The notes under the pieces are model-generated. The model was not told the DNA's origin. It did no database searches and worked only from the letters and a program-made list of their open reading frames with translations. A stretch of DNA of 64,000 nt from the NCBI GenBank assembly GCA_037893245.1, contig JBAIAA010000531.1, positions 1,798,001 to 1,862,000 of the forward strand, in the 5' to 3' direction. The position numbers and the translations under genes were made by a program. Of this stretch, positions 23,378 to 62,141 are shown piece after piece. Each line of letters opens with the position of its first letter. The first letter of the stretch is position 1. Source of the DNA: Crossaster papposus. Its lineage: Eukaryota; Echinodermata; Asteroidea; Velatida; Solasteridae.

Positions 23378-24799
23378 CCTGCCCAGTGCATATACGCCAA
23401 TTGACCGCCCTCGCTCGGTTTTAGTTCAGTTGGCTTGACTCTTCCGGTCGCTTACGTGAGAAACTTGGCAATTGTTATTTATAGGTTTGGAGGTAGCATG
23501 TGTCGCCTCACTCTGCAACAATTGTGACGTTCGCAGGTTAGATATAACAGGAGAAAATGTTACTCATTCGCATCATGTTATTATTTTTCTGTGTTGAATT
23601 CTTGCCCTGTGCATAAAGGCCCATTGACCACCCCCGCTCGGCTCTAGTTCAGTGGTCTTGACTTGCTGAAACTCGAAGTTCTGGTCGCTTCCGTGAGAAA
23701 CTTAGCAATTGTTATTGATGAATTTGGAGGTGGTATGTGTCGCCTCACTCTGCAACAATTTTCACGTTCGCAGGTTAGATATTACAGGAAAATATGTTAC
23801 TAATTCGCATCATGTTATTATTTGTCTGTGTTGAATTCTGGCCCATTGCATATACGCCCATCGACTGCTCTCGCTCGGCTCTAGTCCAGTGGCCTTGACT
23901 TACTGAATCTCGAAGTTCCAGTCGCTTCCATGAGAAACTTGGCAATTGTTATTTATGGATTTGGAGGTGGTATGTGTCGCCTCACTCTGCAAAAGTTTTG
24001 ACATTCGCAGGTTAGATATGACAGGAGAAAACGTTACTTATTCGCGTCATGTTATTATTTTTCTGTGTTGCATTCCTCCCCAGTGCATATACGTCCATTG
24101 ACCGCCCTCGTTCGGCTCTAGTCCAGTGGTCTTGACTTGCTGAATCTCGAAGTTCCGGTTGCTTCCGTGAGAAACTTGGCAATTTGTATTCATCAATTTG
24201 GAGCTGGTATGTGTCGCCTCACTCTGCAACAAGTTTGACGTTCGCAGGTTAGATACAACAGGAAAATATTATACTCATTCGCATCATGTTATTATTTGTC
24301 TGTGTTTAATTCTTGCCCAGTGCATATACGCCCATTGACTGCCTTCGCTCGGCTCTAGTCCAGTGGTGTTGACTTGCTGAATCTCGAAGTTCCGGTCGCT
24401 TCCGTGAGGAACGTGCCAATTGTTATTCATGAATTTGGAGATGGTATGTGTCGCCTCATTCTACAACATGTGTGACGTTCGCAGGTTAGATATACCAGGA
24501 GAAAATGTTACTCAATCGCATCATTTTATTATTGTTCTGTGTTTAATTCTTGCCCATTGCATATTGGCCCATCGACCGCCCTCGCTCGGTTCTAGTCCAG
24601 TGGTCTTGACTTGGTGAATCTCGGAGTTCCGGTCTCCTCCGTGAGAAACCCTGGCAATTTAAATTCATGGATTTGGAGGTGGGATGTGTCGCCTCACTCT
24701 GCAAAAATGTTGACGTTCGCAGGTTAGATATAACTTGAGAAAATGTTACTCATTCGCATCATATTATTATTTGTCTGTGTTGAATTTTTGCCCAGTGCA

Positions 24800-36050: not shown

Positions 36051-36499
36051 TCCGTGAGAAACTTGGCAATTTGTATTTATGGATTTGGAGCTGGTATGTG
36101 TCGCCTCACTCTACAGTATGTTTGACGTTCGCAGGTTAGATATAACAGGAGACAATGTTACCCATTCGCATCATGTTATTATTTGTCTGTGTTTAATGCT
36201 TGCCCAGTGCATATACGCCCATTGACTGCCTTCGCTCGGTTCTAGTCCAGTGGTCTTGACTTGGTAAATCTCGAAGTTCCGGTCGCTTCCGTAAGAAACT
36301 TGGCAATTGTTATTTATGGATTTGGATGTGGTATGTGTCGCCTCACTCTACAACATGTTTGACGTTCGCAGGTTGAATATAACAGGAGAAAATGTTACTC
36401 ATTCGCGTCATGTTAGTATTTGTCTGTGACTCTGTGTTTAATGCTTGCCCAGTGCACATACGCCCATTGACTGCCTTCGCTTGGCTCTAGTCCAGTTGT

Positions 36500-39400
36500 T
36501 TTGACTTGCTGAATCTCGAAGTTCCGGTCGCTTCCGTGAGAAACTTGGCAATTGTTATTTTTGGATTTGGAGGTGGTATGTGTCGCCTCACTCTGAATAA
36601 ATTTTGACTTTCGCAGGTTAGATATGACAGGAGAAAACGTTACTCATTCGCGTCATGTTATTATTTTTCTGTGTTGCATTCCTGCCCAGTGCATATACGT
36701 CCATTCTCGGCGCTCGTTCGGGTCTACTCAAGTGGCCTTGACTTGCTGAATCTCGAAGTTCCGGTCGCCTCCGTGAGAAACTTGGCAATTTGTATTCATG
36801 GATTTGGAGGTGGTATGTGTCGCCTCACTCTACAACATGTTTGACGTTTACAGGTTAGATATATGAGAAAATGTTACTCATTCGCATCATATTATTATTT
36901 GTCTGTGTTGAATTCTTGCCCAGTGCATATACGCCCATTGACTGCCTTCGCTCGGCTCTAGTCCAGTGGTCTTGACTTGGTAAATCTCGAAGTTCCGGTC
37001 GCTTCCGTGAGAAACTTGGCAATTGTTATTTATGGATTTGGATGTGGTATGTGTCGGCTCACTCTGCAAAAGTTTTGACGTTTGCAGGTTAGATATGACA
37101 GGAGAAAACGTTACTCATTCGCGTCATGTTATTATTTTTCTGTGTTGCATTCCTGCCCAGTGCATATACGCCCATCGACCACCCTCGCTCGGTTCTAGTC
37201 CAGTGGTCTTGACTTGGTTAATCTCGGAGTTCCGGTCGCCTCCGTGAGAAACTTGGCAATTTGTAATCATGGATTTGGAGGTGGTATGTATCGCCTCACT
37301 CTGCAAAAATGTTGACGTTCGCAGGTTAGATATGACAGGAGAAAACGTTACTCATTCGCGTCATGTTATTATTTGTCTGTGTTGCATTCCTGCCCAGTGC
37401 ATATACGTCCATTCTCGGAGCTCGTTCGGGTCTAGTTCAGTGGCCTTGACTTGCTGAATCTCGAATTTCTGGTCGCTTCCGGGAGAAACTTGGCAATTTG
37501 TATTCATGGATTTGGAGCTGGTATATGTCGCCTCACTCTGCAAGAAGTTTGACGTTTGCAGGTTAGATATAACAGGAAAATATTGTACTCGTTCTCATCA
37601 TGTTATTATTTGTCTGTGTTTAATGCTTGCCCAGTGCACATACGCCCATTGACTGCCTTCACTTGGCTCTAGTCCAGTTGTTTTGACTTGCTGAATCTCG
37701 AAGTTCCGGTCGCTTCCGTGAGAAACTTGGCAATTGTTATTTTTGGATTTGGAGGTGGTATGTGTCGCCTCACTCTGAATAAATTTTGACTTTCGCAGGT
37801 TAGATATGACAGGAGAAAACGTTACTCATTCGCGTCATGTTATTATTTTTCTGTGTTGCATTCCTGCCCAGTGCATATACGTCCATTCTCGGCGCTCGTT
37901 CGGGTCTACTCAAGTGGCCTTGACTTGCTGAATCTCGAAGTTCCGGTCGCCTCCGTGAGAAACTTGGCAATTTGTATTCATGGATTTGGAGGTGGTATGT
38001 GTCGCCTCACTCTACAACATGTTTGACGTTTACAGGTTAGATATATGAGAAAATGTTACTCATTCGCATCATATTATTATTTGTCTGTGTTGAATTCTTG
38101 CCCAGTGCATATACGCCCATTGACTGCCTTCGCTCGGCTCTAGTCCAGTGGTCTTGACTTGGTAAATCTCGAAGTTCCGGTCGCTTCCGTGAGAAACTTG
38201 GCAATTGTTATTTATGGATTTGGATGTGGTATGTGTCGGCTCACTCTGCAAAAGTTTTGACGTTTGCAGGTTAGATATGACAGGAGAAAACGTTACTCAT
38301 TCGCGTCATGTTATTATTTTTCTGTGTTGCATTCCTGCCCAGTGCATATACGCCCATCGACCACCCTCGCTCGGTTCTAGTCCAGTGGTCTTGACTTGGT
38401 TAATCTCGGAGTTCCGGTCGCCTCCGTGAGAAACTTGGCAATTTGTAATCATGGATTTGGAGGTGGTATGTATCGCCTCACTCTGCAAAAATGTTGACGT
38501 TCGCAGGTTAGATATGACAGGAGAAAACGTTACTCATTCGCGTCATGTTATTATTTGTCTGTGTTGCATTCCTGCCCAGTGCATATACGTCCATTCTCGG
38601 AGCTCGTTCGGGTCTAGTTCAGTGGCCTTGACTTGCTGAATCTCGAATTTCTGGTCGCTTCCGGGAGAAACTTGGCAATTTGTATTCATGGATTTGGAGC
38701 TGGTATATGTCGCCTCACTCTGCAAGAAGTTTGACGTTTGCAGGTTAGATATAACAGGAAAATATTGTACTCGTTCTCATCATGTTATTATTTGTCTGTG
38801 TTTAATGCTTGCCCAGTGCACATACGCCCATTGACTGCCTTCGCTTGGCTCTAGTCCAGTTGTTTTGACTTGCTGAATCTCGAAGTTCCGGTCGCTTCCG
38901 TGAGAAACTTGGCAATTGTTATTTTTGGATTTGGAGGTGGTATGTGTCGCCTCACTCTGAATAAATTTTGACTTTCGCAGGTTAGATATGACAGGAGAAA
39001 ACGTTACTCATTCGCGTCATGTTATTATTTTTCTGTGTTGCATTCCTGCCCAGTGCATATACGTCCATTCTCGGCGCTCGTTCGGGTCTACTCAAGTGGC
39101 CTTGACTTGCTGAATCTCGAAGTTCCGGTCGCCTCCGTGAGAAACTTGGCAATTTGTATTTATGGATTTGGAGGTGGTATGTGTCGCCTCACTCTACAAC
39201 ATGTTTGACGTTTACAGGTTAGATATATGAGAAAATGTTACTCATTCGCATCATATTATTATTTGTCTGTGTTGAATTCTTGCCCAGTGCATATACGCCC
39301 ATTGACTGCCTTCGCTCGGCTCTAGTCCAGTGGTCTTGACTTGGTAAATCTCGAAGTTCCTGTCGCTTCCGTGAGAAACTTGGCAATTGTTATTTATGGA

Positions 39401-40050
39401 TTTGGATGTGGTATGTGTCGGCTCACTCTGCAAAAGTTTTGACGTTTGCAGGTTAGATATGACAGGAGAAAACGTTACTCATTCGCGTCATGTTATTATT
39501 TTTCTGTGTTGCATTCCTGCCCAGTGCATATACGCCCATCGACCACCCTCGCTCGGTTCTAGTCCAGTGGTCTTGACTTGGTTAATCTCGGAGTTCCGGT
39601 CGCCTCCGTGAGAAACTTGGCAATTTGTAATCATGGATTTGGAGGTGGTATGTATCGCCTCACTCTGCAAAAATGTTGACGTTCGCAGGTTAGATATGAC
39701 AGGAGAAAACTTTACTCATTCGCGTCATGTTATTATTTGTCTGTGTTGCATTCCTGCCCAGTGCATATACGTCCATTCTCGGAGCTCGTTCGGGTCTAGT
39801 TCAGTGGCCTTGACTTGCTGAATCTCGAATTTCTGGTCGCTTCCGGGAGAAACTTGGCAATTTGTATTCATGGATTTGGAGCTGGTATATGTCGCCTCAC
39901 TCTGCAAGAAGTTTGACGTTCGCAGGTTAGATATAACAGGAAAATATTGTACTCGTTCTCATCATGTTATTATTTGTCTGTGTTTAATGCTTGCCCAGTG
40001 CACATACGCCCATTGACTGCCTTCGCTTGGCTCTAGTCCAGTTGTTTTGA
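36500..40050. repeat. Higher-order repeat of 5 monomers (1182 bp), about 3 copies
   Basis: Variants recur at 1182-bp offsets: 36887/38069/39251, 37023/38205/39387, 37269/38451/39633. The copies are nearly identical. This is a separate local amplification, next to the 19-monomer block. Confidence 0.92.
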
Positions 40051-42829
40051 CTTGCTGAATCTCGAAGTTCCGGTCGCTTCCGTGAGAAACTTGACAATTG
40101 TTATGTTTGGATTTGGAGGTGGTATGTGTCGCCTCACTCTGCCAAAGTTTTGACTTTCGCAGGTTAGATATGACAGGAGAAAACGTTACTCATTCGCGTC
40201 ATGTTATTATTTGTCTGTGTTGCATTCCTGCCCAGTGCATATACGTCCATCGACCGCCCTCGATCGGTTCTAGTCCAGTGGTCTTGACTTGGTTAATCTC
40301 GAACTTCCGGTCGCCTCCGTGAGAAACTTGGCAATTTGTATTCATGAATTTGGAGATGGTATGTGTCGCCTCACTCTACAACATGTTTGACGTTCGCAGG
40401 TTGAATATAACAGGAGAAAATGTTACTCATTCGCGTCATGTTATTATTTGTCTGTGACTCTGTGTTTAATGCTTGCCCAGTGCACATACGCCCATTGACT
40501 GCCTTCGCTTGGCTCTAGTCCAGTTGTTTTGACTTGCTGAATCTCGAAGTTCCGGTCGCTTCCGTGAGAAGCTTGGCAATTGTTATTTTTGGATTTGGAG
40601 GTGTATGTGTCGCCTCACTCTGCATACATTTTGACTTTCGCAGGTTAGATATGACAGGAGAAAATGTTACTCATTCGCATCATGTTATTATTGTTCTGTG
40701 TTTAATTCTTGCCCAGTGCATATACGTCCACCGACCGCCCTCGCTCGGTTCTAGTCCAGTGGTCTTGACTTGGTTAATCTCAGAGTTCCGGTCGCCTCCG
40801 TGAGAAACTTGGCAATTGTTATTTATGGATTTGGATGTGGTATGTGTCGCCTCACTCTGCAAAAGTTTTGACGTTTGCAGGTTAGATATGACAGGAGAAA
40901 ACGTTACTCATTCGCGTCATGTTATTATTTTTCTGTGTTGCATTCCTGCCCAGTGCATATACGCCCATCGACCGCCCTCGCTCGGTTCTAGTCCAGTGGT
41001 CTTGACTTGGTGAATCTCGGAGTTCCGGTCGCCTCCGTGAGAAACTTGGCAATTTGTATTCATGGATTTGGAGCTGGTCTGTGTCGCCTCACTCTACAAT
41101 ATGTTTGAGGTTCGCAGGTTAGATATAACAGGAGAAATTGTTACCCATTCGCATCATGTTATTATTTGTCTGTGTTTAATTCTTGCCCAGTGCACATACG
41201 CCAATTGACTGCCTTCGCTTGGCTCTAGTCCAGTGGTCTTGACTTGCTGAATCTCGAAGTTCCGGTCCCTTCCGTGAGAAACTTGGCAATTGTTATTTAT
41301 GGATTTGGAGGTGGTATGTGTCGCCTCACTCTGCAAAAATGTTGACAGGAGAAAACGTTACTCATTCGCGTCATGTTATTATTTTTCTGTGTTGCATTCC
41401 TGCCCAGTGCATATACGTCCATTGACCGCCCTCACTCGGCTCTAGTCCAGTGGCCTTGACTTGCTGAATCACGAAGTTGCGATCGCTTCCGTGAGAAACT
41501 TGGCAATTTGTATTCATGGATTTGGAGCTGGTATGTGTCGCCTCACTCTACAACATGTTTGACGTTCGCAGGTTAGATATAACAGGAGACAATGTTACTC
41601 ATTCGCATCATGTTATTATTTGTCTGTGTTTAATTCTTGCCCAGGGCATATACGTCCATTGACTGCCTTCGCTCGGCTGTAGTCCAGTGGCCTTGACTTG
41701 CTGAATCTCAAAGTTCCGGTCGCCTCCATGAGAAACTTGGCAATTTGTATTCATGGATTTGGAGCTGGTCTGTGTCGCCTTACTCTACAATATGTTTGAC
41801 GTTCGCAGGTTGAATAGAACAGGAGAAAATGTTACTCATTCGCGTCATGTTATTATTTGTTTGTGTTGCATTCCTACCCAGTGCATATACGTCCATTCTC
41901 GGCGCTCGTCCGGGTCTAGTCCAGTAGCCTTGACTTGCTGAATCTCTATGTTCCGGTCGCTTACGTGAGAAACTTGGCAATTTGTATTCATGAATTTGGA
42001 AATGGTATGTGTCGCCTCTCTCTACAACATGTGTGACGTTCGCAGGTTAGATATAACAGGAGAAAACGTTACTCAGTCGCGTCATGTTTTTATTTTTCTG
42101 TGTTGCATTCTTGCCCAGTGCATATACGTCCATTGACCGCCCTCGCTGGGCTCTAGTCCAGTGGCCTTGACTTGCTGAATCTCGAAGTTCCAGGCGCTTC
42201 CGTGAGAAACTTGGCAATTTGTATTCATGAATTTGGAGATGGTATGTGTCGCCTCACTCTACAACATGTTTGACGTTCGCAGGTTGAATAGAACAGGAGA
42301 AAATGTTACTCATTCGCGTCATGTTATTATTTGTCTGTGTTTAATTCTTGCCCATTGCATATTATGCCCATCGACCGCCCTCGCTCGGTTCTAGTCCAGT
42401 GGTCTTGACTTGGTAAATCTCGAAGTTTCGGTCACCTCCGTGAGAAACTCGGCAATTTGTATTCATGGATTTGGAGGTGGTATGTGTCGCCCCACTCTTC
42501 AAAATTTTGACGTTCGCAGGTTAGATATGACAGGAGAAAACGTTACTCATTCGCGTCATGTTAATATTTTGCTGTGTTGCATTCCTGCCCAGTGCATATA
42601 CGCCCATCGACCGCCCATGCTCGGTTCTAGTCCAGTGGTCTTGACTTGCTGAATCTCGAAGTTTCGGTCACCTCCGTGAGAAACTCGGCAATTTATATTC
42701 ATGGATTTGGAGGTGGTATGTGTCGCCTCACTCTTCAAACATTTTCACGTTCGCAGGTTAGATATGACAGGAGAAAACGTTACTCATTCGCGTCATGTTA
42801 TTATTTTTCTGTGTTGCATTCCTGCCCAT

Positions 42830-45011
42830 TTAGACCATGGGACGAAGTCACAAAATCCTTTCAGAAAGACATTTTCGTGATCCCCAACTTGGTACATGAT
42901 AAAACTTTCACAAATTGATCTTTAAGGCATACCTAACAACATTTGGGGTGTTCATTTTTGCAAAAGTGGCACTTTGGAGAGTTATTTCACGTAAAATAAT
43001 TTATGGGGCGAAAATAACATGGGGCGAGTTGGGTTTTTCGCCTAGTTTTCATAACAAATTCGCCCCAAAGCCAGTTCGCCCCATACTTTTGTTAACCTAA
43101 TATTGTATTGACTCAAGCCAACTCGCCTCATATTGCATGTACATGACAGGAAAAAGTTGCCAGTGACAAACATGAACTATTACCACCGTTTAAATGTAAA
43201 TCACTCTTGATGGGTTCCCAGGTGGATCCATTTAAGTGTGTTAATTTGTTTTTGTGTTTTTGATTTTGAAACATTAACGGGGTTTTGGGGTTGGTTCATT
43301 GTAATGGTTCATTGTAAAGAAAACAACATTTGAACAGGGCGTTTTTTTAGATTGCATGCCCAAATTGAAAAAATGCCTGCCTAATCATACACTTTAAATA
43401 CCGAATATACATGTATTAATTGTACGTCTCGAAAAAGCTCATGTAAATGTTAATGCTGTTTTGTTGAATTGTTAAATTGAACGGTTATTTTGTAAAATAT
43501 AATGACGCAACGGCACTTTTGACTATAGTCATAAAACAAAATCGAATTACCATTTTCAGCAGCATTCGATTTTGCGCGACAGAATAGGGCGCCGAAGTTA
43601 AATTCGAAAACCTCAACGACATACAGTAATGGATAATTAAATAGAAATGTCATATAGCAGACTTAGGCGGGGACTGACGCGTGACGGGAGCAACGTACAA
43701 TTTTAGTCGAAATTACTCTAAAATAATGATAAACGCAACTTTATATTTATGTGGCCTAAATAATGGTTTTCGTGTTGCAGTGGAGAAACAAAATTGTATT
43801 TTCTTGGGGCGGCCACGCCCAAACATTTGTCAAACCATTGGACCATTTATAATGGTGTGATCTGCGTTAGTTGTCATTGTTAGCACTTTATAATTTGCAT
43901 AGATTTGAATAATGACTATTTATTTTGTAATTTGAAGGTACATACCAACATTTTTTCAACCGTTGTATGCGGTATTGCTAGGATGTTTCTTTGGGGTTTA
44001 CAAGAAAACGAATTGAGAACGCTAGAGGCATATGTCGTTGAGATTCCGAGGAGAGAGCAACAGCTAGCCTCGATGATGACTTGTATTTTACCTAGCTATT
44101 GAGAGCTTAACATTATACAAACTTGAGGCGTGGTGAGTTACTGAGAACTCGCTGAAGTTACTGTGCGCCGTTACCCGTGGTACTAGTAAGCCAGGAATCA
44201 TCCATATCCTGGTTCAAGGGTTGAGCTTACACTTGACCAGTAGACGGTATGGCCGGACCGCAGCGGCGGACCTGAGGACCTGACAGCGTCACTGGCCTAA
44301 GGGACTGATGAGCCATCAACACTACCGAGCCACATTTGAGTTTTGATTTTTATTGTATAATTTCTGTCAATAATTAGCGTTGTGAATTGAAAATTGGATA
44401 TAGGAAGACGTCCTGAATGTTAATTGGAATTCTTGTAAATAAATTATAAATATTGTACAACCCGCCTCGACCAAAAACAACTTTTTTTCTGATTGTCGGT
44501 GTTAACAGGACTACTGAAGGTCAATCTCCCGGGTGGAGCTACCCCGGGGATGTGACAGTCAGATTAGCCGCTACTGGACCAGCCTTCTAAGATCAGAATC
44601 GTCCACTATTTGCGAAGGGGTAAGGTGAACCCATCATGAGAACGTGACGAGGTGAACATCCCGCATACTGTTATATTTCGAACAGAAAGGTTCGTTCAGT
44701 CACGACCACATTTTTGCTAGCAAAAACTAAGAGATTTTGGTTTGTACAATAAGTTCAACCCGCCCCTAACAGCTATTACGGATTTTTAGTTGTCCACTAT
44801 TGAGGCGTCAAGAAAAGTCGTCTAAGTAAAACCCAAATTTTTGCTAGCAACATTTTTAATTTTTATTTACAACGTGTAGGCCTATTGCTTCTTCTAAAAT
44901 CTAAATTTCTGCTAGTAGAAAACTGGGAAAATACAGTTGTCCACTTTTGGAGCATCATATTATTTGCTAGTAAGAATCCAAAATGTGTAGTTATATTTCG
45001 CCAATTCCGTC
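42830..45011. other. Non-coding region right of the satellite
   Basis: No supported gene. 42990-43140 contains several GGGGCGA/TCGCCCC motifs in both orientations. From about 44617 to 45000 a loose repeat appears several times, combining TGTCCACTATT with GAGGCGTCA and TTTGCTAGCA. Related copies occur at 49235-49400 on the other side of the DIRS-like element. Confidence 0.45.
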
Positions 45012-45145
45012 GAGACTCACCGAGTATAGTTTTGTTGTATTGCGATCTAGACCACCCTTAGAAGCTAATGGAACGTCCCTCATTAGCATAAGAAAAGGTT
45101 TCTTACCAAAGGTAGTGGTGTGATGCTGCGTTCTCCTAAGGAATC
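45012..45145 (+). repeat. Left inverted terminal repeat of the DIRS-like fossil
   Basis: Starts GAGACTCACCGAGTATAG and ends TCTCCTAAGGAATC. It is matched in reverse complement at 49035-49168 with only a few differences. Confidence 0.9.
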
Positions 45146-48100
45146 TGTGTCTTTGTTTTTTGTGTCGCGGTCACGTTCTTCACTTCTACCCGGGATTTTA
45201 GCGTTACATTAGCCATATCACTCAGCATGTCGAAGTCTCGACAAAGTTTTTCGTCAGCCCCATGCACGGTTTCTCGAGCCCCTGATGAGAAACCCTCCTC
45301 GCCTCCAGCGGATATTTTAGCCATGGCGGCTAAAGAGATAGCCCCGTCTGGGGTAAAATTTTGTGGACCAAGCCCAAGCTCCTCCGTGGGCTGACGGCTT
45401 GATGGGCAGTGGGCTTTCATGCCCCAAGCCCCTCTCTACTGATCTGCCTAGGCAGCCTTCACCGGCCCCAGCTTCGTCTGGTACCGGTGCGCCACGCCCA
45501 TCGGCTCACCATCAGCCGCAATTTGCACCCAGTATGCAACCGTTTCCTGCTCAGTCAGGGTACTACTGGTATCTTCAACCACCGACAGCTCCCTGGGGTG
45601 CTCCCCCGGGTGGTCCAGTGGCATCTACAACCTGGCGCATTCAATCAATGGGGCATTCCTATGCAGTATTTTTCCCAGCAATTTTTGCACGGCGATTTTT
45701 CGGACCAGCCTTCAACTACTTTCGGAAATGTTCGTCAACGACACGCCCCGCCCATCCCTCCGGCCCCAGTACTTGCAAAGCACCCTCCATCTGATGACGG
45801 CAGCCATCTTGATATTGCCGCCGTTAGTGACGACGAATTCTCCACTTCAACCGTTCAAACGGCTGGAACCGGAAGAGAGCCTTTTCGTCTTCCACACAAG
45901 AAAGAGACAGGTAACCCGATCTCCGAGAAGGTGACCCAGTGGTGGGAAGAACTGGGAACTCACAAGTTGTCCTCTGAGGATTACAAAAAGGAGATTTCAC
46001 CGTATAACGTGCCTGTGGACCAGGCGAAATTATTCTCGGCCCCGGAACTTCCTCCCGGTTTGAAGAAGGTTTTCAAACAGGTAAATTCGTCAACCATTAT
46101 TTGTGACGAGAAGTTAAAAGCCTCTCATAATTACATTCTTGATGCTGTCAAACCATTGCTTTGCCTTTTTGACGCAGTTACTGATGCCGAATGCCCCAAT
46201 GAAGTTCCTAAAGATCTGGTTAAGGATCATCTTTCCTCGGCCATTATTTTACTAGGCTCTTGGCAGTCAGGGTTTGGCCTTAGCTAGACAACATGCGTCT
46301 AGATGCTCAGTCTTGTTTGACTAACGTACGTGCCAATCCAGCATTTTCTGTACCCCTAGCAGGTCGTGTAAGATTTTTTTCTCATTTTTGGTTAAAATTA
46401 ACTCGCGATCCCTGGATCATTCAGACCTTAAATGGTTACTGTTTAAGCTTCAATTCTACTCCGTTTCAGTCTTTCGTTCCTGTAACCCACGCTCCATCTA
46501 AAAAACACGCTTCGATGTTTAACCTAGAGATACAGAAAATGCTTGATAAAGGTGCCGTTACCATTTAACAGCCTGTACAAATACAGTTTATTTCTACTCT
46601 GTTCATGGTCCCAAAATCTTTCGGGGATCTTCGTCCAGTAGTTAATTTACGTCCACTAAATTAATTTATTGTGCACCAACACTTCAAGATGGAGAACATT
46701 TCTTCAGTGAGAGATCTTTGGCACACGGAGATTGGATGTGTAAAATAGACCTGAAGGATGCTTATTTTTCAGTTCCTATTGATTTTAGTCCGAGAAGATT
46801 TCTTCGTTTTATCTGGAATGAGGTCATTACAATTTACTTGTCTTCCTTTCGGTTTGTCAAGCGCCCCCCCGCACTTTTACTAAGATTCTTAAACCAGTAG
46901 CTTTCCACCTCAGAGAATGTGGTATTCGCTGTATATTTTACCTGGTTGACATTCTGGTCCTTGGATCATCCTTCCATGGATGTATGACAAACACTCAGTT
47001 GACGACCAATCTTCTTCGTAATTTGGGTTTCATCATCAACGAAGAAAAATCTAGTATCGTCCCTAGTCAAGATATTACATACCTCGGCTTTGTTATCAAC
47101 TCCTTGGATATGACTCTCTCTTTTAACCATGAAAAGATCCAGCAAGTCATCAGTCACTGCCAGAAGATTTTGGAAACAGAACAAGTCACTGTTTGTCAAC
47201 TTTCCAGCCTATTAGGCAGGTTATCTTTACCAATCCTTGCAGTACTTCAGTCTCGGGTTTTTTACCGCAGTCTTCAGGAAGACAAAATCTCCGCTCTCGG
47301 GAGGGAGAACAGTTACGAGTCCACAGTAACTCTTTCGCAGAATTCTCGAGAGGAGCTGAGAACATGGATTCGTTGCCTTCATGCCTGGAACGGTCGGCTA
47401 TTTCTTCATCTGACACCAGATGTGACCCTTCAAACAGATGCGTCAATGTTGGGATGGGGTGCTTGTCTTTAATCCAAGATAGGAGGCCGTTGGACGTCGC
47501 AAGAACAACTCCATCATATCAATTATCTCGAGCTGCTTGCAGTTTGGTACGCCATCCAATCTTTCTTCAAAGAACGGCGGAACCTTTATGTTCTCCTTCA
47601 GATGGACAACTCCACGGCCATTGCTTATATCAATCACCAAGGGGGAACTCATTCGGTTCCACTGTCGCAACTCGCTGTCAATATCTGGGTTTGGTGTTTG
47701 GAGAGGAACATCACTCTAGTAGCACAACACATACCAGGGTCTCAACATATCACGGCAGACATGATGTCACGGGTTTTCGACGATCGCACAGAATGGCAGC
47801 TTCTCCCAGAAAATATTCAACAAGATTTCCAGTGCCCTGGATTTCATCCCATCAGTAGACCTCTTCGCGTCTCGTTTAAACACGCAGCTGGAGACCTTTG
47901 TGTCATGGCAACCAGACCCCATGGCCTGGAGAGTCGACGCTCTTTTTCTCAGTTGGAAGAACATAAACGGTTATGTTTTCCCTCCGTTTTCGCTTCTTCT
48001 GAAGATTATTCGAAAGATCAGCGAGGAGGAAGCTACAGTGATTCTTGTCGCTCCGGTGTGGAATTCCTAGGCCTGGTACCCCAGACTGTTAGAGCTTGCA

Positions 48101-49034
48101 GTAGAAATGCCTCTACTCCTTCACAGGAGAAGGGATCTCCTTCAGCTTCCCCACGATCGGTCTCAAGTACATCCACTGATATGCAGCCTCCAACTGGCCG
48201 CATGGAAGTTATCAGGGCGAATCTCTCTTCAGAGGGGTTTTCACACAAGGTGTCAACCACTGTCCTTGCTTCATGGAGACCACAGTCTAATAAGCAATAT
48301 AATTCATCCTGGAAAAGATGGGCAAGCTGGTGTTTACAAAGGAAATTTGATCCCGTTCAAACTTCTATAGCAAATTGTTTAGATTTTCTTCAGCAGCTGT
48401 TTGATGAGGGCCTATGCTACTGGACGATAAATGTTTATTGTTCTGCAATCTCATCGGCTCACTCTTTTATTGATGGTTTTCCTATTGGTTAGCATCATTT
48501 AGTGTGAAGATTCCTTAAAGGTATTTTCGGGCTTCGCTTACCTAGACCGAAGTACAACTTGACATGGGATGTCGGAAAGGTCCTTAACTTTGTTAAGTCT
48601 CTTCCTGACAATCGTCGTTTGTCATTAAGGCAGTTAACTCTCAAGTTAGCTATGCTTCTTGCACTTGTAACCGCCAGTCGCCGATCTTCCCTAACGGCTA
48701 TTGACATCGATCACATGACTCGATCCACTGATGGGAAATACAGTTTCCTGCTTGTTAAGCCGTCAAAATGTGCTTCAGTCAATTCAATTCAATTCAATTC
48801 AATTTACTTTATTATCCACAAACAAATGAGAAATTCATTCTCGACGGAATTGGCGAAATATAATTCCCCAATTACATAAAGGTACTTCCTGCAATATAAT
48901 TGGAATTATATAAGACAATGGAGGAGAGACTCAACCTCCCTCCCTAATTTTCTCTTCAGTTTCTTTCTGCAGATAACCCGCCCGAGTTATTCTAGTTGGT
49001 TGCCAATGATTACCGCTAGCTTCAAAAAGACCGT

Positions 49035-49168
49035 GATTCCTTAGGAGAACGCAGCATCACACCACTACCTTTGGTAAGAAACCTTTTCTTATGCTAATGA
49101 GGGACGTTCCATTAGCTTTTAAGGGTGGTCTAGATCGCAATACAACAAAACTATACTCGGTGAGTCTC
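49035..49168 (-). repeat. Right inverted terminal repeat of the DIRS-like fossil
   Basis: Reverse complement of 45012-45145. It starts GATTCCTTAGGAGAAC and ends GTATAGTTT-complement through GTGAGTCTC. Confidence 0.9.
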
Positions 49169-49729
49169 TCCTCTATTGTCTTATATAATTCCAATTATCT
49201 TGCAGGTAAGTACCTTTATGTAATTGGGGAATTTTGAGGCATCAAAATAGTAGTCAAAGTAAAATCCTAATTTCTGTTAGCAGGTAAGTCAGTTTGTTTA
49301 AAACAGGTGTCGCAATTCCTAAGACATAAAATTCTACTACAGCATGTAGTAACAAATCAGACAATACGGTTGTCCACTGTTGGCGATCCATACAGTTGGT
49401 GAAAGGGTGCTGCGCTATACGTATACGTGCGTAGTTAGCTGTACTTCGACGTTTACATTGTTTATAGTTAATGTTGGGCCGACTTTCTTCATGCAATGTT
49501 GCCAAACTTCTTTGTTGACAAACTGCAAATTCATAAAAAATATTTACTGTAGGCCTTTAGCATTCAAATGGCATTCAAATATGGCAAGAAAGCTTCAGTT
49601 CAGTGCCACTGAAAAAAAAAAAATAGGCTCTAATTAGTTAAAATGTTGGGCAGGAAAGTCAATTTATAGTTTTATAATTGGCCACTCCAAAATTTCCCCG
49701 CACTTCACTACTATCTGTTTTCCTTTATT

Positions 49730-54300: not shown

Positions 54301-57300
54301 AGTAAACCTCAATAGGGACAAAACTCCGATTATTGTTAGGGCTGCACTCGACCGTCGCCGAACCGTAAGAGGCAACTAATACCCCAACAAATCCAGCTTC
54401 ACTGACTCCCCAATCAAAGGTTACCTCCTTATCTCATCTAGGTCTCACAACAATCTAGACCCAACTCGCTATCTACTTAAACTCATCTATCGTTAAGTTT
54501 CACTTTCTTGATCACCCCTTTTCTCTATTTCTCTCTCTCTCTGCAGTCAAGGGATGCTAGTCATGGCTTACGTGTCTTCCCTATTTCTCTTGGTGGCGTT
54601 ATTCATCAAACGCAGAGATTCACCAATCAACATGATCCTTCTTGGTCTGTTCGTAAGTACAGTAGTACTGTCTCAGCAGGGCATATTATGACCCTCTTGA
54701 CCCCAGTCTGAATGTACTGGATCCCAGTGTGACGTAATGGCAACATTTGTCGGACTTTCCAGTTATATCCCTAACCCTCCAGGGTATACATGTACTGTAT
54801 AATGGCTAGAAACCCTGCCAGACGCAGCAACATGCACCATTTGTCCAAATGACTAACCTGCCCAGTGCAGCAAGATCAATCGGGTCAAAAATCTTGATGT
54901 TGAACTGCCTCAAATTCTGTGGTAACCCAACACAGCAGGATATATGTACATCTCTGGCATTGTTACATGAGGACTAGCTCTCAATAGTCTAGGACTTAGC
55001 CATTCATGCACTGGTGTTGACTGCTAAATGCATTAACCAGGCCTCAACCTTAAGCTTCAGAGGGTCAAGGCCACTTGGCCTCAAAGGCTCCAAAAATGAA
55101 AGGGGCACCAAGGCCAACCTAAAGGGCACCAAGGCCATTTTAAAACTGTTATTTGTTCATCCCCGGATCACCACCGTCCCAACTCTCCGAGTCAACCCCC
55201 CCCTTCCAAAAAAAACCTCAACAAAATCCGCTGTTTCAGAAAATTCAACCTTGAAGTTGAATATAAAATTCTTTAAAAAAGATATTCTTAGAAATAAATA
55301 TGATTATACACATTTTTAAAGACCCCCCCCCCCCCAAAAAAAAAAAAGCCAAATAATTGGCCTATATAAACGAAAATATGATTATGAAAATTGAAAATGA
55401 ATCCTCTTAACGCCATATCATTCGCCTATGTAAACGTGCATGTTTATGCCTAGCCCTAGTCTATGGCCGGCCGGCCCCGCGTCCATCAGTGCAAAAAAAC
55501 CAAAACAATTTCATGGAAATCATTCGGTCTCAAACTCGACATGCAGGTTCATTTATTATAGCGCATCGATATTTCGCCATAATTAGGACTTTTCCGTGGT
55601 TCCGTCTGGTGTAATTTGTCTCTAAATCTGCGTAAACAAAAATAAAAAATGTTCGCGATAAACGCAAAACATCATGGCGGAACAAGTCTGCGTAGGCGTG
55701 CACAGCTCGTCGCACCGAACAACAGAGGGCGCTCTGCTAGTGCCCTATGTTGTTCGGTGCGACGAGCTTTGCACGCCGCGCCTGTGCAGACTTGGTCCGC
55801 CATATTGTTTTGCGTTAATCGCGAATTATTTTTGGCCAGTCTATACATGAGTAGTCTGGTACCGTGTTTTTAGTAGTAAACAACTCAACTACGTTTGATA
55901 TGGTTGCCATGCCACGTTCTCCTCTGCAAACTTGCGCGATGCATGGCGCAAGCAGCATTTATGAAAACTAGTGCGCGGGAGAGCGTACGCTACATACATG
56001 TACGTCAAAACAATTTGATCTTCGTAATGGGTCACAACGTTAACATAATTTTTAATAACACTTTCGACTACATAATATAATGGAATCAATGAAAAGGGGC
56101 ACGACGGCCAAGTGGCCGTAAGGTACGTGTTTTTTATAAGGGGCTTCACGGCAATTCGCTGGGGCATCGCGGCAATGGCCGCTGGCGGCCGCTGTAGAGG
56201 TTGAGGCCTGCATTAACCCTAACCCTACCTAATGCTACTTTTTACTACTAGTAGTAAAAAGTAGTATGCAGTACTCTCACTGACTTGTGTGCAATGCCTG
56301 TAGTAATTTTTAGTATTTGGTACTTCACCCCTAATTGCACTGGTAGTACTTTTTAGCATTGGGTCCCTCTGCTTGCTGAGTGTGCATGGCCCATGTATGC
56401 TGTGTAGGGTGTTCTAAACTCTACAGCAATGGGACACAGCAATGGGTCAAGGCTGGACTACTGCATTTTTTGCCAGGTAAGTATTATTGACCTGTATTGC
56501 CACTATTAGTATTTTGTAGTTGGCAGTATCTGTACTCTGTCATCAGTACACACCCAATCATCAGTCACGGAGAGACCCAGTGCTACAAAATACTAAGTAG
56601 TATTCTGTAGTATGCAGTTCTTTAGCCGAAAGTAAGGCCTAGGGGGTTAGGGTTAAAGTGTACATGTACATGTAACAGACTTTTCCCTCCTGATGCATTG
56701 TGCTGTGAATTGTTGGTACATTCAGTGAACCTTATAACCATGCTCTGGCTCTAAAATCCAAATAATACAGGGTGTTTTTCAAAGAAACCAGTGTCATCCA
56801 GTACTTGGAAATATGGTTGGGCATTTCTGTGGGAGACCTTGTAGAGTTAAATTGTGCACAGAGGTGACAGCATTGTTAAGCACTGTGTGGGGCCACGAGC
56901 AATGAAAATCTTATTTTGCGGCATTATTTTGGGAAATTTCTCCCTCCGTCTGATTTGTTCATTTTGTTTGTCTTTGGATGCAGACTTTTGTAGAAGCCTA
57001 CAGCGTTGGAACCATCGTGACCTTTTACAACAAAGCTGTGGTGCTGCAGGCATTCTCCCTGACCATGGTGGTTACACTCGGCCTAACTGCCTACACTATG
57101 CAGAGCAAGAGAGACTTCAGCTCTTGGGGTGCAGGGTAGGTGCATGATAAGAGGACCCACATTGCCATGAAACAACACTCTTAGGCTGCAGTGGGTTTAG
57201 ACGTTGGGTCAAGTCGCTGTTGTAGATACGCGATAACCCACCGTCTGGGGCTGTGCATCGGAAACCGGGTGCTCGAGTACCCGTACGTTGAGGTCCGGAA

Positions 57301-60300
57301 CCGATTCCCGATTATAAATTTAAGTACCTGTAGCCATTTTTGAATTTTACAAACTACATACTATAGTATTGTAGAGCATCAGCTCTTCAGAGTACGGCCA
57401 AGAGGCGCGAGAATACTTTGTACGAAGTGGAGAAGGGGAATTTCAGATAATGTCACGAAGACAGACACTGTTCAGACAAATTTTCTTTGCAACGTCTGAC
57501 GTTAAACTTGATTAAACTGCTCCCAATCGTACCCTGTTCCACCATCAAATTTAAACTGCTTTTATCTCTCGATTCGAACAAAAAGGTAAACCTTCAGCAT
57601 TATTCAAATTTTCTTCCACGCACTATATAATCTGTACTATAGATATAATCATAGTTAATTTTCACATCACTACAGTAACTTTTCAGACGATGAAACCAAA
57701 AGGTTTTGAATGTCATTTTCTTTTTTTAATTTTGAAAATGAAACCAGGCTGCTTAGAAAAACAAAATCGATTTCAAATTGATGCTTGTTACCTTGCACAC
57801 CTTAACACTGATGTGGCAGTATTAAAGTGCAGATCTTTAGGAACAAGTTGAAACTTCTGAGAATACAATTTTGGGGTAGGTTTTTTGTTTAACAGGTACC
57901 AGTGTTTTTTGTGATTGGGTATAGCATTGGGTATCCGGTTCCCAAACTACCTGTAAATGCCCGCGAACAGGCCTTATCTCAACAAAGTTCCTTTGCACGA
58001 GTTCCTCCTCATCCAATCTGTTACTGGGTCAATATGCCAATCAATCGCTCCTTGTCCTCCCTGTAGGTTGTACTGAGCCCTTCTGATACTCAGTAGCCTC
58101 CTTTACATCTTCCTAGCCCTTACCAAAATGACCAATTCATTCCAATTGAAAAGCCAATTGGAATGAATTGGGTTCAATTGGTATTGAGTTGGTTTAAGTT
58201 GGTTTGAATTGGTATGCTCTATTCCAATTGGAAAAAAAGTCACCGACCAATTGGAAAACCAACTGATGTACCATACTCTTAATTGGTATTTAATTGGTTC
58301 GAGTTGGAAACTATTGGAATTGGGTTTTTCCAATTGGGATCCTATCTACTTATTTCATTCCCAATTGGAATCCCTTCTGAACGTTTCATTTCCAATTGGA
58401 ATCCCATCTCTCATTTCATTCCCAATTGGAATCCCGTCTATCATTTCATTCCCAATTGGAATCCTATCTATCAATTATTTTCCAATTGGAATCTCTTCTG
58501 AACGTTTCATTTCCAATTGGAATCCCGTCTCTCATTTCATTCCCAATTGGAATCCCGTCTATCATTTCATTCCCAATTGGAATCCTATCTATCAATTATT
58601 TTCCAATTGGAATCTCTTCTGAACGTTTCATTTCCAATTGGAATCCCGTCTATCATTTCATTCCCAATTGGAATTCCTTCTGAACGTTTCATTTCCAATT
58701 GGAATCCTATCTATCTATTCTTTTCCAATTGGAATCCCTTCTGAACATTTCATTTCCAATTGGAATCCCGTCTATCATTTCATTCCCAATTGGAATCCCT
58801 TCTGAACGTTTCATTTCCAATTGGAATCCTATCTATCAATTCTTTTCCAATTGGAATCTCTTCTGAACGTTTCATTTCCAATTGGAATCCCGTCTATCAT
58901 TTCATTCCCAATTGGAATCCCTTCTGAACGTTTCATTTCCAATTGGAATCCTATCTATCTTCTTTTCCAATTGGAATCCTTTCTAAACATTTCATTTCCA
59001 ATTTGAAACCCATCTATCAATTCTTTTCCAATTGGAATCCCTTCTGAACGTTTCATTTCCAATTGGAATTCAATCATTTCATTTCCAATTGGAAACCTGC
59101 CTGGGGATGGTATATTATAACAATATTCGCATAAATCTCTTGTCCTCCCATGGAAAATAAGTATTCAAAAGGACAAACAAAAAGACATTAAGTGCTTTTT
59201 AAAATACTTTAATACATTTATGAATGAAGTAAGTCAATGAACCAGACTACCAAAACAACAATGTTCTTGGTTTTTCCAGGTCTGCATCACAATATTTACT
59301 TTATGAACCCCTAAAGCCATCCATTGATGGTTGTAATGGTCAATGTTTGTTTTGATTCCTCCCACGATATTACCACTTGGTGGCGCTATTTCCTTCAACC
59401 CCAGCTCCTGAGGGCGCCGTCTCACTTTTACAGTGCACTCAAGGTCAAATAGCAGGCCGCTTGTATTCCCGACACTTCGTCCACGAGACAGATGCTCCTG
59501 ATAACCAGTTTTCTAATCGGTGTTTTCGATAGTTTTATGTGATTCACACATTGATTTTTGGTAGTTAGAGCCAAGATAGATTTTCCTGACATGTTGTTCC
59601 GAGTTGACCCCACAAGAACCACAGTCAAGTAAGTGGTTTTTTAAGTGACTTTCTGAGCCTAAAAACGTGTGCTTCTTGTTTACAAGTTCATGTTATTTTC
59701 CTCTACATGCACTGAAGTATTTTTAACATGCTGACTGTTTGCTGACCCCTATATGGTCTCAGTGTTATTGTAGGCATCCAGAACCGTTGTTCTAATTATT
59801 AGGTGATTAGTTTCTTCTGATATTCGACATTATCAAGATTATTTCCTCACAGTTCTTGATCACTTCGATAGTGCTTTAGATAATTACCGATTACTATATT
59901 TAGGTGTGATTGTCACAGACTGCTCATTCATAATATAGTAAATAGTTTGTACTTTGTCTGTATTTCTTAAATAGACTTATTAACCAGATTTATTGTTAGT
60001 AGAGATTGTATTCACCATTTCCTCCTGAAGATTGTTCATGTTTTAGAACTTTGCTAGTTTTTGAGTAGTTTTGTATTTCTTATTTTGTTAACAGTTCACC
60101 GCGCATTAAAGACAGACAGTGGAATCTGAAGTCCTGACCTTTGGCCGCTTATTTGTCTAAGATCGTGGTTGACACTAGCTGGTGAAAGATTACTCTTGAC
60201 GTTATCACAGAAACCAGTACAGTGAATTGACTGTGCCACAGAACCGAATGCTGTGGACCCCGAACCATCCATCATGTCAGAAAGTAGTAGGACAGGGCTG

Positions 60301-62141
60301 TTCCTGAACCAGATCGAACCGGAGCTAAAGGGCAATGACGACTCCGATGGAACTGCTCGTTCCAGGGACCCCCCTGATGAAACCACTCCCCCTGAAGACC
60401 TCTCGGGTTGACCACAGAGAGAAAGACACCCCACCCACAAGGCCCTTGCCAACGAAATTGAGACGAAAACCAAGAATTTCTACGCAGAGTGGCGAAATTA
60501 AGACCAAACAAGCCCTGGAAAAGCTGCAACACGCCCCCGATGAAGGAAAAACCCTTGACACAGATTTGAGCAACGCCCGTCGTTCACTCAAATCTTACAA
60601 CAAGGTGTGGTCGGAACTTAAGAATACCTACGCTCAAGACAAAACAGACACATTCAAGGAGGATGGCCTACACATCTACAGCATTTTCCTCGACAACTGT
60701 AACTTTGCAAACGGTGTCATCGCTCACGCGATGGACCGAATCCACTCCTTGGCCCTTGAAGTACGCTCAAACATCAGCAGAGGTTATCTTCATCGGCCCT
60801 TAGTGTCCGAGCACAAGCTTTGGCCGACGCTGCTGCCGCAGACCAGGAAGCGGCCAATGAGGAAGCCATAGCTAGACGGACGGCCAAACTAAGAACTGAT
60901 CAAGCTGCCGAAGCGGCCGTGAGAGCAAACATGGAAGCAAAACAGGTAGCCAAACAAGCCACGGCCGAGGCAGACCTGCAGATACTTCGGGTTCGACAGA
61001 CTGCCGCTATGAAGAGGGCCAGATCAAAGGCCATAATACAGGCTGAACTCGAAGAAAAGGGGGGCGTTCCCCTCACCTTACCCGAACAGTCGTCGAATGA
61101 CCACGCCGGAAACTTCTAGGGAAATTGAATCTGGGGAAATTACTTTGCATTTATATATGTCATCCGGCGCGAACTGGTTAAAGAAGACAAAAGGGCATAA
61201 AAGATAAACTTCACTGGCACGTAATTAAAGCTTGAAATGGTGCTCAATAAATTTACAATAAATTTTGTAACGTAAACTTCTGTGTGATTTTCAACAACGT
61301 ACTGCAGACTGTTGTGGCGATAAAAAAATATAGTCCGAATTCAAAATCAGATTAATCCTATTGATTGTGAGTTATTTGTGTGACAACTTTAATGTAGCTT
61401 TTAAGACATGCAATATAAATACCAATTGGTATTGGGAAAAAACCAATCGGATAAAGAATCTAAAGAATTGCCAATTGGTTTTTTTTCTTTCCAATTGGTT
61501 TTTTTCCTTTCCAATTGGTTTTTTTTCTTTCCAATTGGAAAAACACCAATTGGAAAAACACCAATTGGAAAAACACCAATTGGAAAAACACCAATTGGAA
61601 AAACACCAATTGGAAAAACACCAATTGGAAAAACACCAATTGGAAAAACACCAATTGGAAAAACACCAATTGGAAAAACACCAATTGGAGAAAATAATGT
61701 CCAATTGGTTCCAACTAAAAAGTGCCAATACTCAATTGGTAAATATTCCAATTGGTTCCAATTTGAATTTTCAATTGGTAATGAATTGGAATTTTTGGTA
61801 AGGGCTGACTCAAAGTGACGCCGTGTAGTTCCTCTTCATTTAATTTGTGACTTGATCAATCGATTTCTTCTTGTCCTTCCTTTAGGTTGTACTCGGCTCT
61901 CCTGATCCTGATACTCGGCGGCCTCCTTCACATCTTCCTGCCTCAGAGCAATGCCGTGGAGTTCCTCCTCGCCATCTTTGGAGCCATCCTCTTCTGCGCC
62001 TTCATCGTCTTCGACGTCCACATGATGATGCACAAGCTGTCGCCGGAGGAGTACATCTTGGCCTCCATCAACCTATATCTGGACATCTTGAATCTGTTCC
62101 TGCACATATTACGCATTCTCGGGGAGGCACAGAAGAAGTAG
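51295..62141 (+). CDS. TMBIM4: TMBIM4 (Lifeguard 4 / GAAP), five coding exons
   Basis: Coding exons 51295-51391, 53685-53793, 54547-54652, 56984-57135 and 61886-62141 total 720 nt and give 239 residues plus stop. Human TMBIM4 is 238 residues. All introns are GT-AG with phases 1, 2, 0, 2. The N-terminus has IESIVDDFRYGTNVA, matching the family's IEDDFNYG.SVA. Hydrophobic segments then make the usual seven-helix BI-1/LFG fold: exon 2 GILSTQLLVTTVVCAIF, exon 3 MAYVSSLFLLVALF, exon 4 TFVEAYSVGTIVTFY and AFSLTMVVTLGLTAYTMQSK. Exon 5 has FCAFIVFDVH, MHKLSPEEYILASINLYLD and ILNLFLHILRIL. The conserved acidic pair of the family's Ca2+-leak/pH-sensing site corresponds to D198 and D221. Known members sit in the Golgi/ER membrane, lower luminal Ca2+ and oppose apoptosis. 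Function here is by homology. Confidence 0.95.
51893..51949. repeat. (TACAG)n microsatellite
   Basis: Eleven perfect TACAG units in TMBIM4 intron 1. Confidence 0.97.
51988..52217. repeat. Foldback repeat in TMBIM4 intron 1
   Basis: Two arms of about 90 bp in inverted orientation (about 51988-52080 and 52130-52217). They share AAAATGACTT, AAGATTGG/CCCATCTT, ATAAGCTTTCTAATGAT and CCATC. The arms are diverged by roughly 15-20 percent. MITE-like, no coding capacity. Confidence 0.75.
52715..52800 (+). repeat. Dispersed repeat, copy 1
   Basis: Shares GCTGGATGCCTAGAATCATTA and the following TTTACTTTC-type sequence with the minus strand of 63845-63920. It contains a perfect 21-bp palindrome at 52735-52755 (CCAGCAAAAT, C, and its complement). 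Confidence 0.6.
52871..53110 (-). pseudogene. Possible retrocopy: small secreted-like ORF with poly(A)
   Basis: The minus-strand frame 53095-52892 encodes 67 residues: a hydrophobic N-terminus like a signal peptide (GTMVFLVCCVARTGPATA), then KDWFGLNVDMVDYTVADLYRD and a short acidic end. I do not recognise the family. A run of about 21 A on that strand follows the stop directly, as expected for a retroposed mRNA, although a 3' UTR would normally intervene. It could equally be a chance frame or a first exon of an unknown antisense gene in TMBIM4 intron 1. Confidence 0.25.
53209..53360. repeat. Inverted repeat, CpG-rich, intron 1
   Basis: GATAGATCGGGGTGGACAT (53209-53227) is matched in reverse complement at 53341-53360 with one or two differences. 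The interior is rich in GCGC/CGCG, unlike the AT-rich surroundings. MITE-like. Confidence 0.65.
53685..53793 (+). CDS. TMBIM4: TMBIM4 coding exon 2
   Basis: Follows TTTCACTGCAG and ends AAAAG before GTAAGTG (phase 2). It encodes FLRKVFGILSTQLLV and the first transmembrane helix, matching human FLRKVYSILSLQVLL. Confidence 0.95.
54547..54652 (+). CDS. TMBIM4: TMBIM4 coding exon 3
   Basis: Preceded by a long CT tract and CTGCAG. It ends GGTCTGTTC before GTAAGTAC (phase 0). It encodes the second helix, the charged loop IKRRDSPINM and the start of the third helix. Confidence 0.95.
55039..56209. mobile_element. 1.17-kb TIR element in TMBIM4 intron 3
   Basis: Ends AGGCCTCAACCT and AGGTTGAGGCCT are perfect 12-bp inverted repeats. 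The 9-bp sequence GCATTAACC occurs on both sides (55030-55038 and 56210-56218) as a perfect target duplication. Both ends carry GGGGCAC-type subterminal motifs and GGCCAC/GTGGCC. A 9-bp duplication fits Mutator-like elements. If the end is taken as CAGGCC, the duplication is 7 bp, closer to hAT. No transposase is visible. A foldback repeat lies within it. Confidence 0.8.
55652..55825. repeat. 174-bp foldback nested in the 55-56 kb element
   Basis: Arms of about 82 bp meet around 55738. They share TTCGCGAT/ATCGCGAA ends, ACGCAAAACA, ATGGCGGA, AGTCTGC, GCTCGTCGCACCGAACAACA and GGGC. The match is about 90 percent and weaker pairing extends some 9 bp further out. It could fold into a long hairpin if transcribed in the intron. 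Confidence 0.85.
56213..56656. mobile_element. piggyBac-like MITE with TTAA ends
   Basis: TTAA stands at both ends (56213-56216, 56653-56656), next to CCCTAACCC and GGGTTAGGG, which is the usual arrangement for piggyBac-type insertions. The 436-bp interior has repeated TAGTATTTTGTAG-like motifs and a perfect 30-bp palindrome at 56235-56264. There is no coding capacity. Its left TTAA lies within the target duplication of the neighbouring element, so that element inserted at its edge. Confidence 0.6.
56984..57135 (+). CDS. TMBIM4: TMBIM4 coding exon 4
   Basis: Follows TTTGGATGCAG and ends GGTGCAGG before GTAGGT (phase 2). It encodes helices 3-5, with VTFYNKAVVLQAFSLT and YTMQSKRDFSSWGAG matching human VTFYDVYIILQAFILT and YTLQSKKDFSKFGAG. 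Confidence 0.95.
57977..58114 (+). pseudogene. Dead duplicate of TMBIM4 intron-4 end and exon-5 start
   Basis: Aligns to 61807-61939 over about 135 bp. It shares AGTTCCTCYTCAT, TCAATCG, CTTGTCCTYCCT, TAGGTTGTACT, CTGATACTC, GCCTCCTT and ACATCTTCCT, with small gaps. The copy keeps a recognisable 3' splice site (CCCTGTAG), but the exon frame meets a TGA at the fourth codon. It ends exactly where the terminal inverted repeat begins at 58115. It is not expected to be used in the mRNA. Confidence 0.85.
58140..59097. repeat. CCAATTGG palindrome array, left
   Basis: About 30 CCAATTGG sites occur, mostly as TTYCCAATTGGAATCC units with a spacing near 30 bp. They are organised in larger repeats that alternate CTTCTGAACGTTTCA, CCGTCTATCATTTCA and CCTATCTATCAATT linkers. 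Open frames with repeating FPIGI or SNWNP are by-products. Confidence 0.95.
60270..61120 (+). mobile_element. gag-like fossil fragment, possibly BEL/Pao type
   Basis: Two overlapping open stretches encode a charged leader-type protein followed by an Ala/Glu/Arg-rich coiled-coil region (for example QAAEAAVRANMEAKQVA at about 60900). This is reminiscent of the N-terminal gag region of BEL/Pao elements. The fragment is broken and no protease, polymerase or clear LTR pair was found around it. Its divergence cannot be judged without relatives. It lies inside the 58115-61806 element. Whether it was inserted there or is part of that element is unclear. Confidence 0.35.
61420..61800. repeat. CCAATTGG palindrome array, right
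   Basis: The core (61531-61690) is about 11 perfect copies of the 15-bp unit CCAATTGGAAAAACA. It is flanked by CCAATTGGTTTTTTTC units in the opposite orientation on the left and looser CAATTGG sites on the right. It is much more regular than the left array. Confidence 0.95.
61807..61939 (+). repeat. Functional copy of the duplicated exon-5 boundary segment
   Basis: Right-hand member of the 135-bp flanking duplication (other member 57977-58114). It begins directly after the terminal inverted repeat and includes the pyrimidine tract, TTTAG and the first 54 bases of exon 5. Confidence 0.85.
61886..62141 (+). CDS. TMBIM4: TMBIM4 coding exon 5 with stop
   Basis: Follows TGTCCTTCCTTTAG. The first base completes a Gly codon. 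It encodes residues 155-239, with both conserved acidic residues, and ends in TAG. A diverged, non-functional copy of its first 50 bases and 3' splice site lies at about 58030-58114. Confidence 0.97.

Follow-up and report, generated by a model that had tools for sequence, protein, structure and literature searches.

Diverged repeats of a TMBIM exon start on either side of a young EnSpm/CACTA-like transposon in Crossaster papposus

The window (the whole stretch of DNA analyzed here, 64,000 nucleotides of Crossaster papposus contig JBAIAA010000531.1) contains a transposon in intron 4 of a Bax1-I (TMBIM) gene, and this transposon is bordered by two diverged direct repeats of host DNA, each made up of the end of the intron and the start of exon 5. 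The arrangement raises the question of whether the insertion itself made the host duplication or whether the element entered a duplication that was already present. The original prediction had named both possibilities, as a very long staggered repair and as an insertion between the units of an earlier tandem duplication. We conclude that the locus very probably reflects an old duplication, the decay of its left copy, and a much later entry of an EnSpm/CACTA-like element that was not the maker of the duplication. Positions are counted from the first letter of the window, and all features described for the gene and the element are on the plus strand.

The exon 4 splice donor lies at 57136 to 57142 (...GGTGCAGG followed by GTAGGTG, the last exon base being 57135), and the coding part of exon 5, placed by Pfam matches and the spliced reading, is open from 61886 to the stop at 62141. 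The Bax1-I (PF01027) matches of the gene cover exon 5 and the exon 4 region, with the exon 4 match beginning 18 bases ahead of the open stretch and crossing one TGA there. The gene had been provisionally named TMBIM4, which would agree with the human protein of that name. The left host segment, B1 (57983 to 58114, although the left limit of homology is possibly a few base pairs earlier, near 57977), is a decayed copy that holds the intron 4 end and reaches 48 bp into exon 5, and the right segment, B2 (61811 to 61939), is an intact copy that holds the intron 4 end and reaches 54 bp into exon 5. Both have an AG acceptor and then the exon start (58065 to 58066 in B1 and 61884 to 61885 in B2). When the exon 4 donor at 57135/57136 is spliced to B2, the frame continues as GLYSALLILILGG...EAQKK to the stop codon, whereas splicing to B1 gives GLY and then a stop, as the exon-like stretch there has an in-frame TGA (58074 to 58076) for its third complete codon. 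As had been predicted, then, only the right copy is open, and the proposal that the gene kept its function through one intact splice site fits the open B2 exon.

The presence of host repeats at the two sides of the element was confirmed by alignment. Comparing 57801 to 58116 with 61805 to 62000 gave a single block in which 99 of 120 aligned bases were identical, with 21 mismatches and 21 gap columns (58 of 72 identical in the intron 4 end and 41 of 48 in the exon 5 start). The score of 327 exceeded the maximum of 216 from 500 shuffles; when the flanks were lengthened to 500 bp at unchanged gap costs, it was again 327 and did not exceed the shuffles (maximum 371, n = 30). Under such permissive gap costs random scores grow with flank length, and reliance was placed instead on the shorter-window alignment and on blastn, which matched B1 to B2 in 600-bp flanks with an E value of 2.8e-13. 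In a whole-genome DNA search that omits very common words (query, 57977 to 58240), the sole non-self match to the body of B1 was B2 (71%, E = 5.9e-9), and the remaining matches fell in the element, intruding no more than 14 bases into B1. Beyond these two segments, the genome DNA searches detected neither a third copy nor a second haplotype, and a coarse scan of the window with the exon 5 region found no remnant of a larger duplication. The differences between the copies (14 transitions, 7 transversions, and gaps) look like ordinary old mutation. A recent allelic origin of the two copies was set aside, as 17.5% substitutions was judged excessive for ordinary alleles.

The element itself spans 58117 to 61804 (3,688 bp), its ends being set by comparison with sister copies; it begins with CCCTTACC and finishes with ...GGTAAGGG. 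A 3.7-kb element with terminal inverted repeats is thus present as described, with its ends inside the 58115 and 61806 first proposed, since the bases AG and CT lie outside it. The terminal repeats occupy 58117 to 58152 (CCCTTACCAAAA...) and 61769 to 61804 (...GGTAAGGG), and the pair is 79% complementary over 38 nt when AG and CT are counted. The host homology had been said to meet the element exactly at these ends; it comes close, stopping 2 bp short on the left and, on the right, 6 bp short in the gapped alignment and 22 bp short by blastn. Motifs of 27 and 28 bases at the ends are identical across the 20 copies compared, the window copy included. The left end has matches of at least 81 bp at 97 to 100% identity in at least 22 places in the genome, one of them in the window, and at least 23 near-full matches to the right end (93 to 100%) were found. 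Inside the ends lie subterminal repeat arrays, with periods of 30, 61, and 122 on the left (58327 to 59094) and of 20 and 15 on the right (61471 to 61693), as is typical of EnSpm/CACTA (CMC) elements.

Two open reading frames of the window copy (180 and 119 amino acids) matched no Pfam family at E values up to 0.01. The evidence on family comes from a 16.5-kb relative (C263:1590848-1607369) that shares its two ends and parts of its interior with the window element and that carries, between the shared ends, a 637-amino-acid open reading frame matching the tnp2-type Transposase_21 (PF02992; E = 1.6e-7; 31.2 bits against a cut-off of 28.6). This frame probably belongs to the relative, rather than to a nested foreign element, and its product may be what moves the window copy. 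Because of it, the family looks EnSpm/CACTA-like, and the terminal inverted repeats, the subterminal arrays, and the 2- to 3-bp target duplications of the sister copies are all points of likeness; target duplications of 2 to 5 bp are given for the group in the relevant part of PMC12730594. The likeness is incomplete in that the window copy has no target duplication and neither tested frame is a recognized transposase. The termini also differ: the same part of that source gives CAC...GTG for EnSpm and CA...TG "in most cases" for the wider clade, whereas those of this family are CCC...GGG, and we therefore call it EnSpm/CACTA-like instead of a proven member.

Target duplications bear directly on the idea of a very long staggered repair. 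Of the 19 sister copies fetched at both ends, 18 show an exact duplication of 2 bp and one (C259) shows a 3-bp duplication, TAT/TAT; with the TG/TG of the 16.5-kb relative, short target duplications were found in 20 of 20 sister copies (2 bp in 19 and 3 bp in one). This scoring covered copies with two readable ends, leaving out C549 (left end only), C31 and C53 (right end only), and the diverged right ends of C168 and C232. The window copy, with AG at 58115 to 58116, between the B1 homology and the element, and CT at 61805 to 61806, where a target duplication would read AG, is the sole copy of the 21 read that has none. Homologous flanks of the kind seen here were also confined to the window copy. 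In a self-comparison of 600-bp flanks of 20 copies, the window among them, four passed the threshold of E < 0.01 (window, C640, C630, and C794), and in the latter three the matches lie at least 12 bases off on at least one side (in C630 the match touches the left end and is 215 bases off at the right). These three look like local repeats; 16 matches between flanks of different copies passed the same threshold, and weak self-matches therefore mean little. The expectation that other copies would show long flanking duplications thus found no support, since none of the 19 has homologous flanks meeting both element ends.

The relative ages of the element and the duplication are what resolve the striking picture of a transposon between long host repeats, as the repeats predate the element. 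Over a 2,331-bp interior segment (59110 to 61440), the window copy differs from C382, the closest of the 12 aligned copies (0.48%), at 5 sites and by two 2-bp gaps, and it carries 4 substitutions that are private against all six close sisters. Along the full length of the element, the window copy stands apart from every one of the 12 other aligned copies at five sites when only columns lettered in all are counted, and the left terminal 244 bp shows 0 to 3 substitutions to each of the 12. The dating alignment was made without C918 and C316, whose fetched loci did not each contain the two ends, and without further shorter copies. The per-lineage divergence of B1 and B2 (21/120) is about 51-fold higher than that of the element (Fisher p = 5.6e-25 on raw counts), a ratio that is rough, as the repeat arrays were excluded and the B2 exon is presumably under selection; the age gap far exceeds the effects of both. 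That the host copies are some 50 times more diverged than the element argues that the duplication predates the insertion, and it would be much the older of the two, assuming that the element as a whole was not refreshed by gene conversion. A staggered repair of great length is contradicted by this divergence of the flanking copies as well as by the short target duplications of the sister copies. Insertion between earlier tandem units fares better: the older duplication is borne out, and the missing target duplication (1 of 21 copies) is left unaccounted for.

We propose that a small part of the TMBIM (Bax1-I) gene, the intron 4 end and the exon 5 start, was duplicated long ago, that one duplicate, B1, would then have decayed, and that an EnSpm/CACTA-like transposon would have entered the duplicated region much later. 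The present join most likely arose in a rearrangement involving the young element, either through recombination between two nearby copies of it or through aberrant rejoining of the end of one copy, and what remained of the first duplicate would have been deleted together with the beginning of the second. If the first duplicate had an insertion point p and the second an insertion point q, and the two were joined in this way, the stretch q-p would necessarily meet both ends of the element, and the target bases would not need to match. Homology that comes close to both ends, together with the unmatched AG and CT, therefore favors two joined insertion points. We put the chances of an originally larger duplication and of a join made by transposon-mediated deletion at roughly even, and we favor this route, as a matter of judgment, over a plain insertion near the junction. 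Unmatched target bases are the expectation of ectopic recombination between two copies, and they are what is observed here; mismatched target bases at element ends are also a point of likeness to the Galileo breakpoints, where, in the portion of PMC2775673 that describes them, target duplications were exchanged by ectopic recombination and no longer match. A second precedent is provided by maize duplications in PMC3744419, which are short, bounded by transposons, and nonmatching at one end. The Galileo cases set out there differ in being inversions with two chimeric copies, whereas one join is present here and chimerism is not clear. The portions of PMC4168063 and PMC1852546 that concern target site duplications take differing duplications as signs of independent insertions and have no direct bearing here.

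Several observations count against the rearrangement. The coarse scan of the window turned up no remnant of a larger duplication, no close second copy of the exon was found in the genome, and loss of the target duplication by a small deletion could be a simple alternative. The element is also not a clear chimera. The nearest copy does change along its length: in the interior it is C382; in the left array (58361 to 59109), where repeats exchange easily, C382 differs at 10 of 630 positions and C441 at 8 of 749, and at the right end C164 differs at 0 of 298 and C382 at 1 of 363, with two gaps each.

The account that best survives beside it is a plain insertion, in which B1 and B2 formed a compact tandem, the element by chance entered within a few base pairs of their junction, and the 2-bp target duplication was lost or never made. 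We regard this as a real, if lesser, possibility. It has the merit that a single insertion suffices, and the age order agrees with it. Weakly in its favor, the bases AG plus CTGA agree with GCCTCA of B2 at 3 of 6 positions and are maybe further exon bases, a reading that would place the insertion a few base pairs inside the first unit. Against it stand the two coincidences that it needs, a hit within a few base pairs of the junction and the absence of a target duplication, the latter seen in 0 of 20 sister copies. The core account of an old duplication and a later element holds under either the transposon-mediated join or the plain insertion.

Less can be said for a history in which an old element of the family made or entered the duplication and a young copy later replaced its sequence through gene conversion. 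Old flanks, a young interior, and a mutated target duplication would all be accounted for, and the window copy and C382 have 6-mers in common in both flanks, CTTCCT on the left and TGACTC on the right near the element ends. This is the best of 190 pairs, and random site pairs from the window reach such a match at a rate of 0.00046 per pair. By eye, no further alignment was found in 40 bases on each side of these two copies, and templated copying from the C382 locus was rejected on the adjacent bases, which disagree (T/TTT versus AG/CT). The conversion would need to span all 3.7 kb to both ends of the element, including the left terminal 244 bp with its 0 to 3 substitutions to each of the 12 aligned copies, and we consider it unlikely. 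We give just as little credence to a misassembly at the 3.7-kb repeat or a joining of two haplotypes: near-identical ends of the family do occur in at least 22 places in the genome, but the contigs are long (2.4 Mb here), the frame is maintained between exons 4 and 5 across the join, and the genome searches yielded no additional copy of either host segment.

Least probable of all is that the insertion itself created the duplication, whether by a very long stagger, by gap repair, or by a hybrid-element or reversed-ends event as in P elements and Ac, since the flanks should then be as alike as the element is young and are about 50 times more different, and since the sister copies have short target duplications. 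Hybrid element insertion of P elements, as reportedly described by Preston et al. in 1996, yields host duplications that meet the element ends, and fresh duplicates made in this way would be identical, unlike those in the window. The position of the host copies close to the two element ends and the lack of a target duplication do match such events as far as they are set out in the pertinent part of PMC3744419. That part reports reversed-ends transposition of maize Ac/hAT elements with host duplications of 147/148, 1262/1257, and 116/118 bp meeting the transposon ends, two of the cases having nonmatching target sequence at one end, with duplicates 93 to 99% identical, elements 95 to 96% alike, and two elements present. 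The short direct host repeats at the element ends and the unmatched target bases are shared with those cases; the present locus differs from them in having one element and duplicates far older than it. A recent hybrid-element or reversed-ends duplication was rejected on the age of B1 and B2 relative to the element.

If the transposon-mediated join is correct, the event would have eliminated the greater part of a competing exon that was already dead and left the AG at 58065 to 58066 behind as a decoy acceptor. From its sequence this acceptor is a possible decoy, its use in splicing being predicted at most; were it spliced, the TMBIM protein would end two residues past the glycine whose codon lies where exons 4 and 5 meet, and the element would shape the splicing of the gene. 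Confirmation of this route would provide a natural case in which an EnSpm-like element cut back an old duplication of an exon and left the gene unbroken. That an animal EnSpm-like element acted here in full, with a natural transposase-mediated deletion or copy-to-copy recombination in an old tandem exon duplication and an effect on splicing, strikes us as doubtful. The events invoked are of known and ordinary kinds in a neat combination.

No close second copy of exon 5 was found genome-wide, and the other Bax1-I matches in the genome (C188, twice, C742, C682, and C8) are all distant. A fusion of two TMBIM paralogues, considered as a source of the two exon starts, is at most weakly possible given that no close second copy was found, and it is further disfavored by the stop in B1 beside an exon 4 that is open. 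Contig C8, which is over 5 Mb long, has uninterrupted full-length matches to both Bax1-I and COX1, and it appears to be of bacterial origin, from either a contaminant or a symbiont. Mitochondrial COX1 is found on C1841, a contig of 16,330 bp, where TGA reads as Trp, AAA apparently as Asn, and ATA as Ile; of codes 2, 5, and 9, table 9 places the residues that are conserved in the protein, which would suggest an animal of echinoderm-like or hemichordate-like kind.

Two further features were recorded in the window. A 237-bp unit is repeated in tandem about 82 times (85% matches) from 23442 to 42828, an array that takes up 19 kb of the sequence upstream of the gene. A retroelement at about 44990 to 49240 has a reverse transcriptase match (PF00078) in 46822 to 47472, and the peptide FLRRTQHHTTTFGKKPFLMLMRDVPLA is encoded on the minus strand in 44991 to 45170 and on the plus strand in 49037 to 49237, which suggests inverted terminal repeats, presumably as in DIRS elements.
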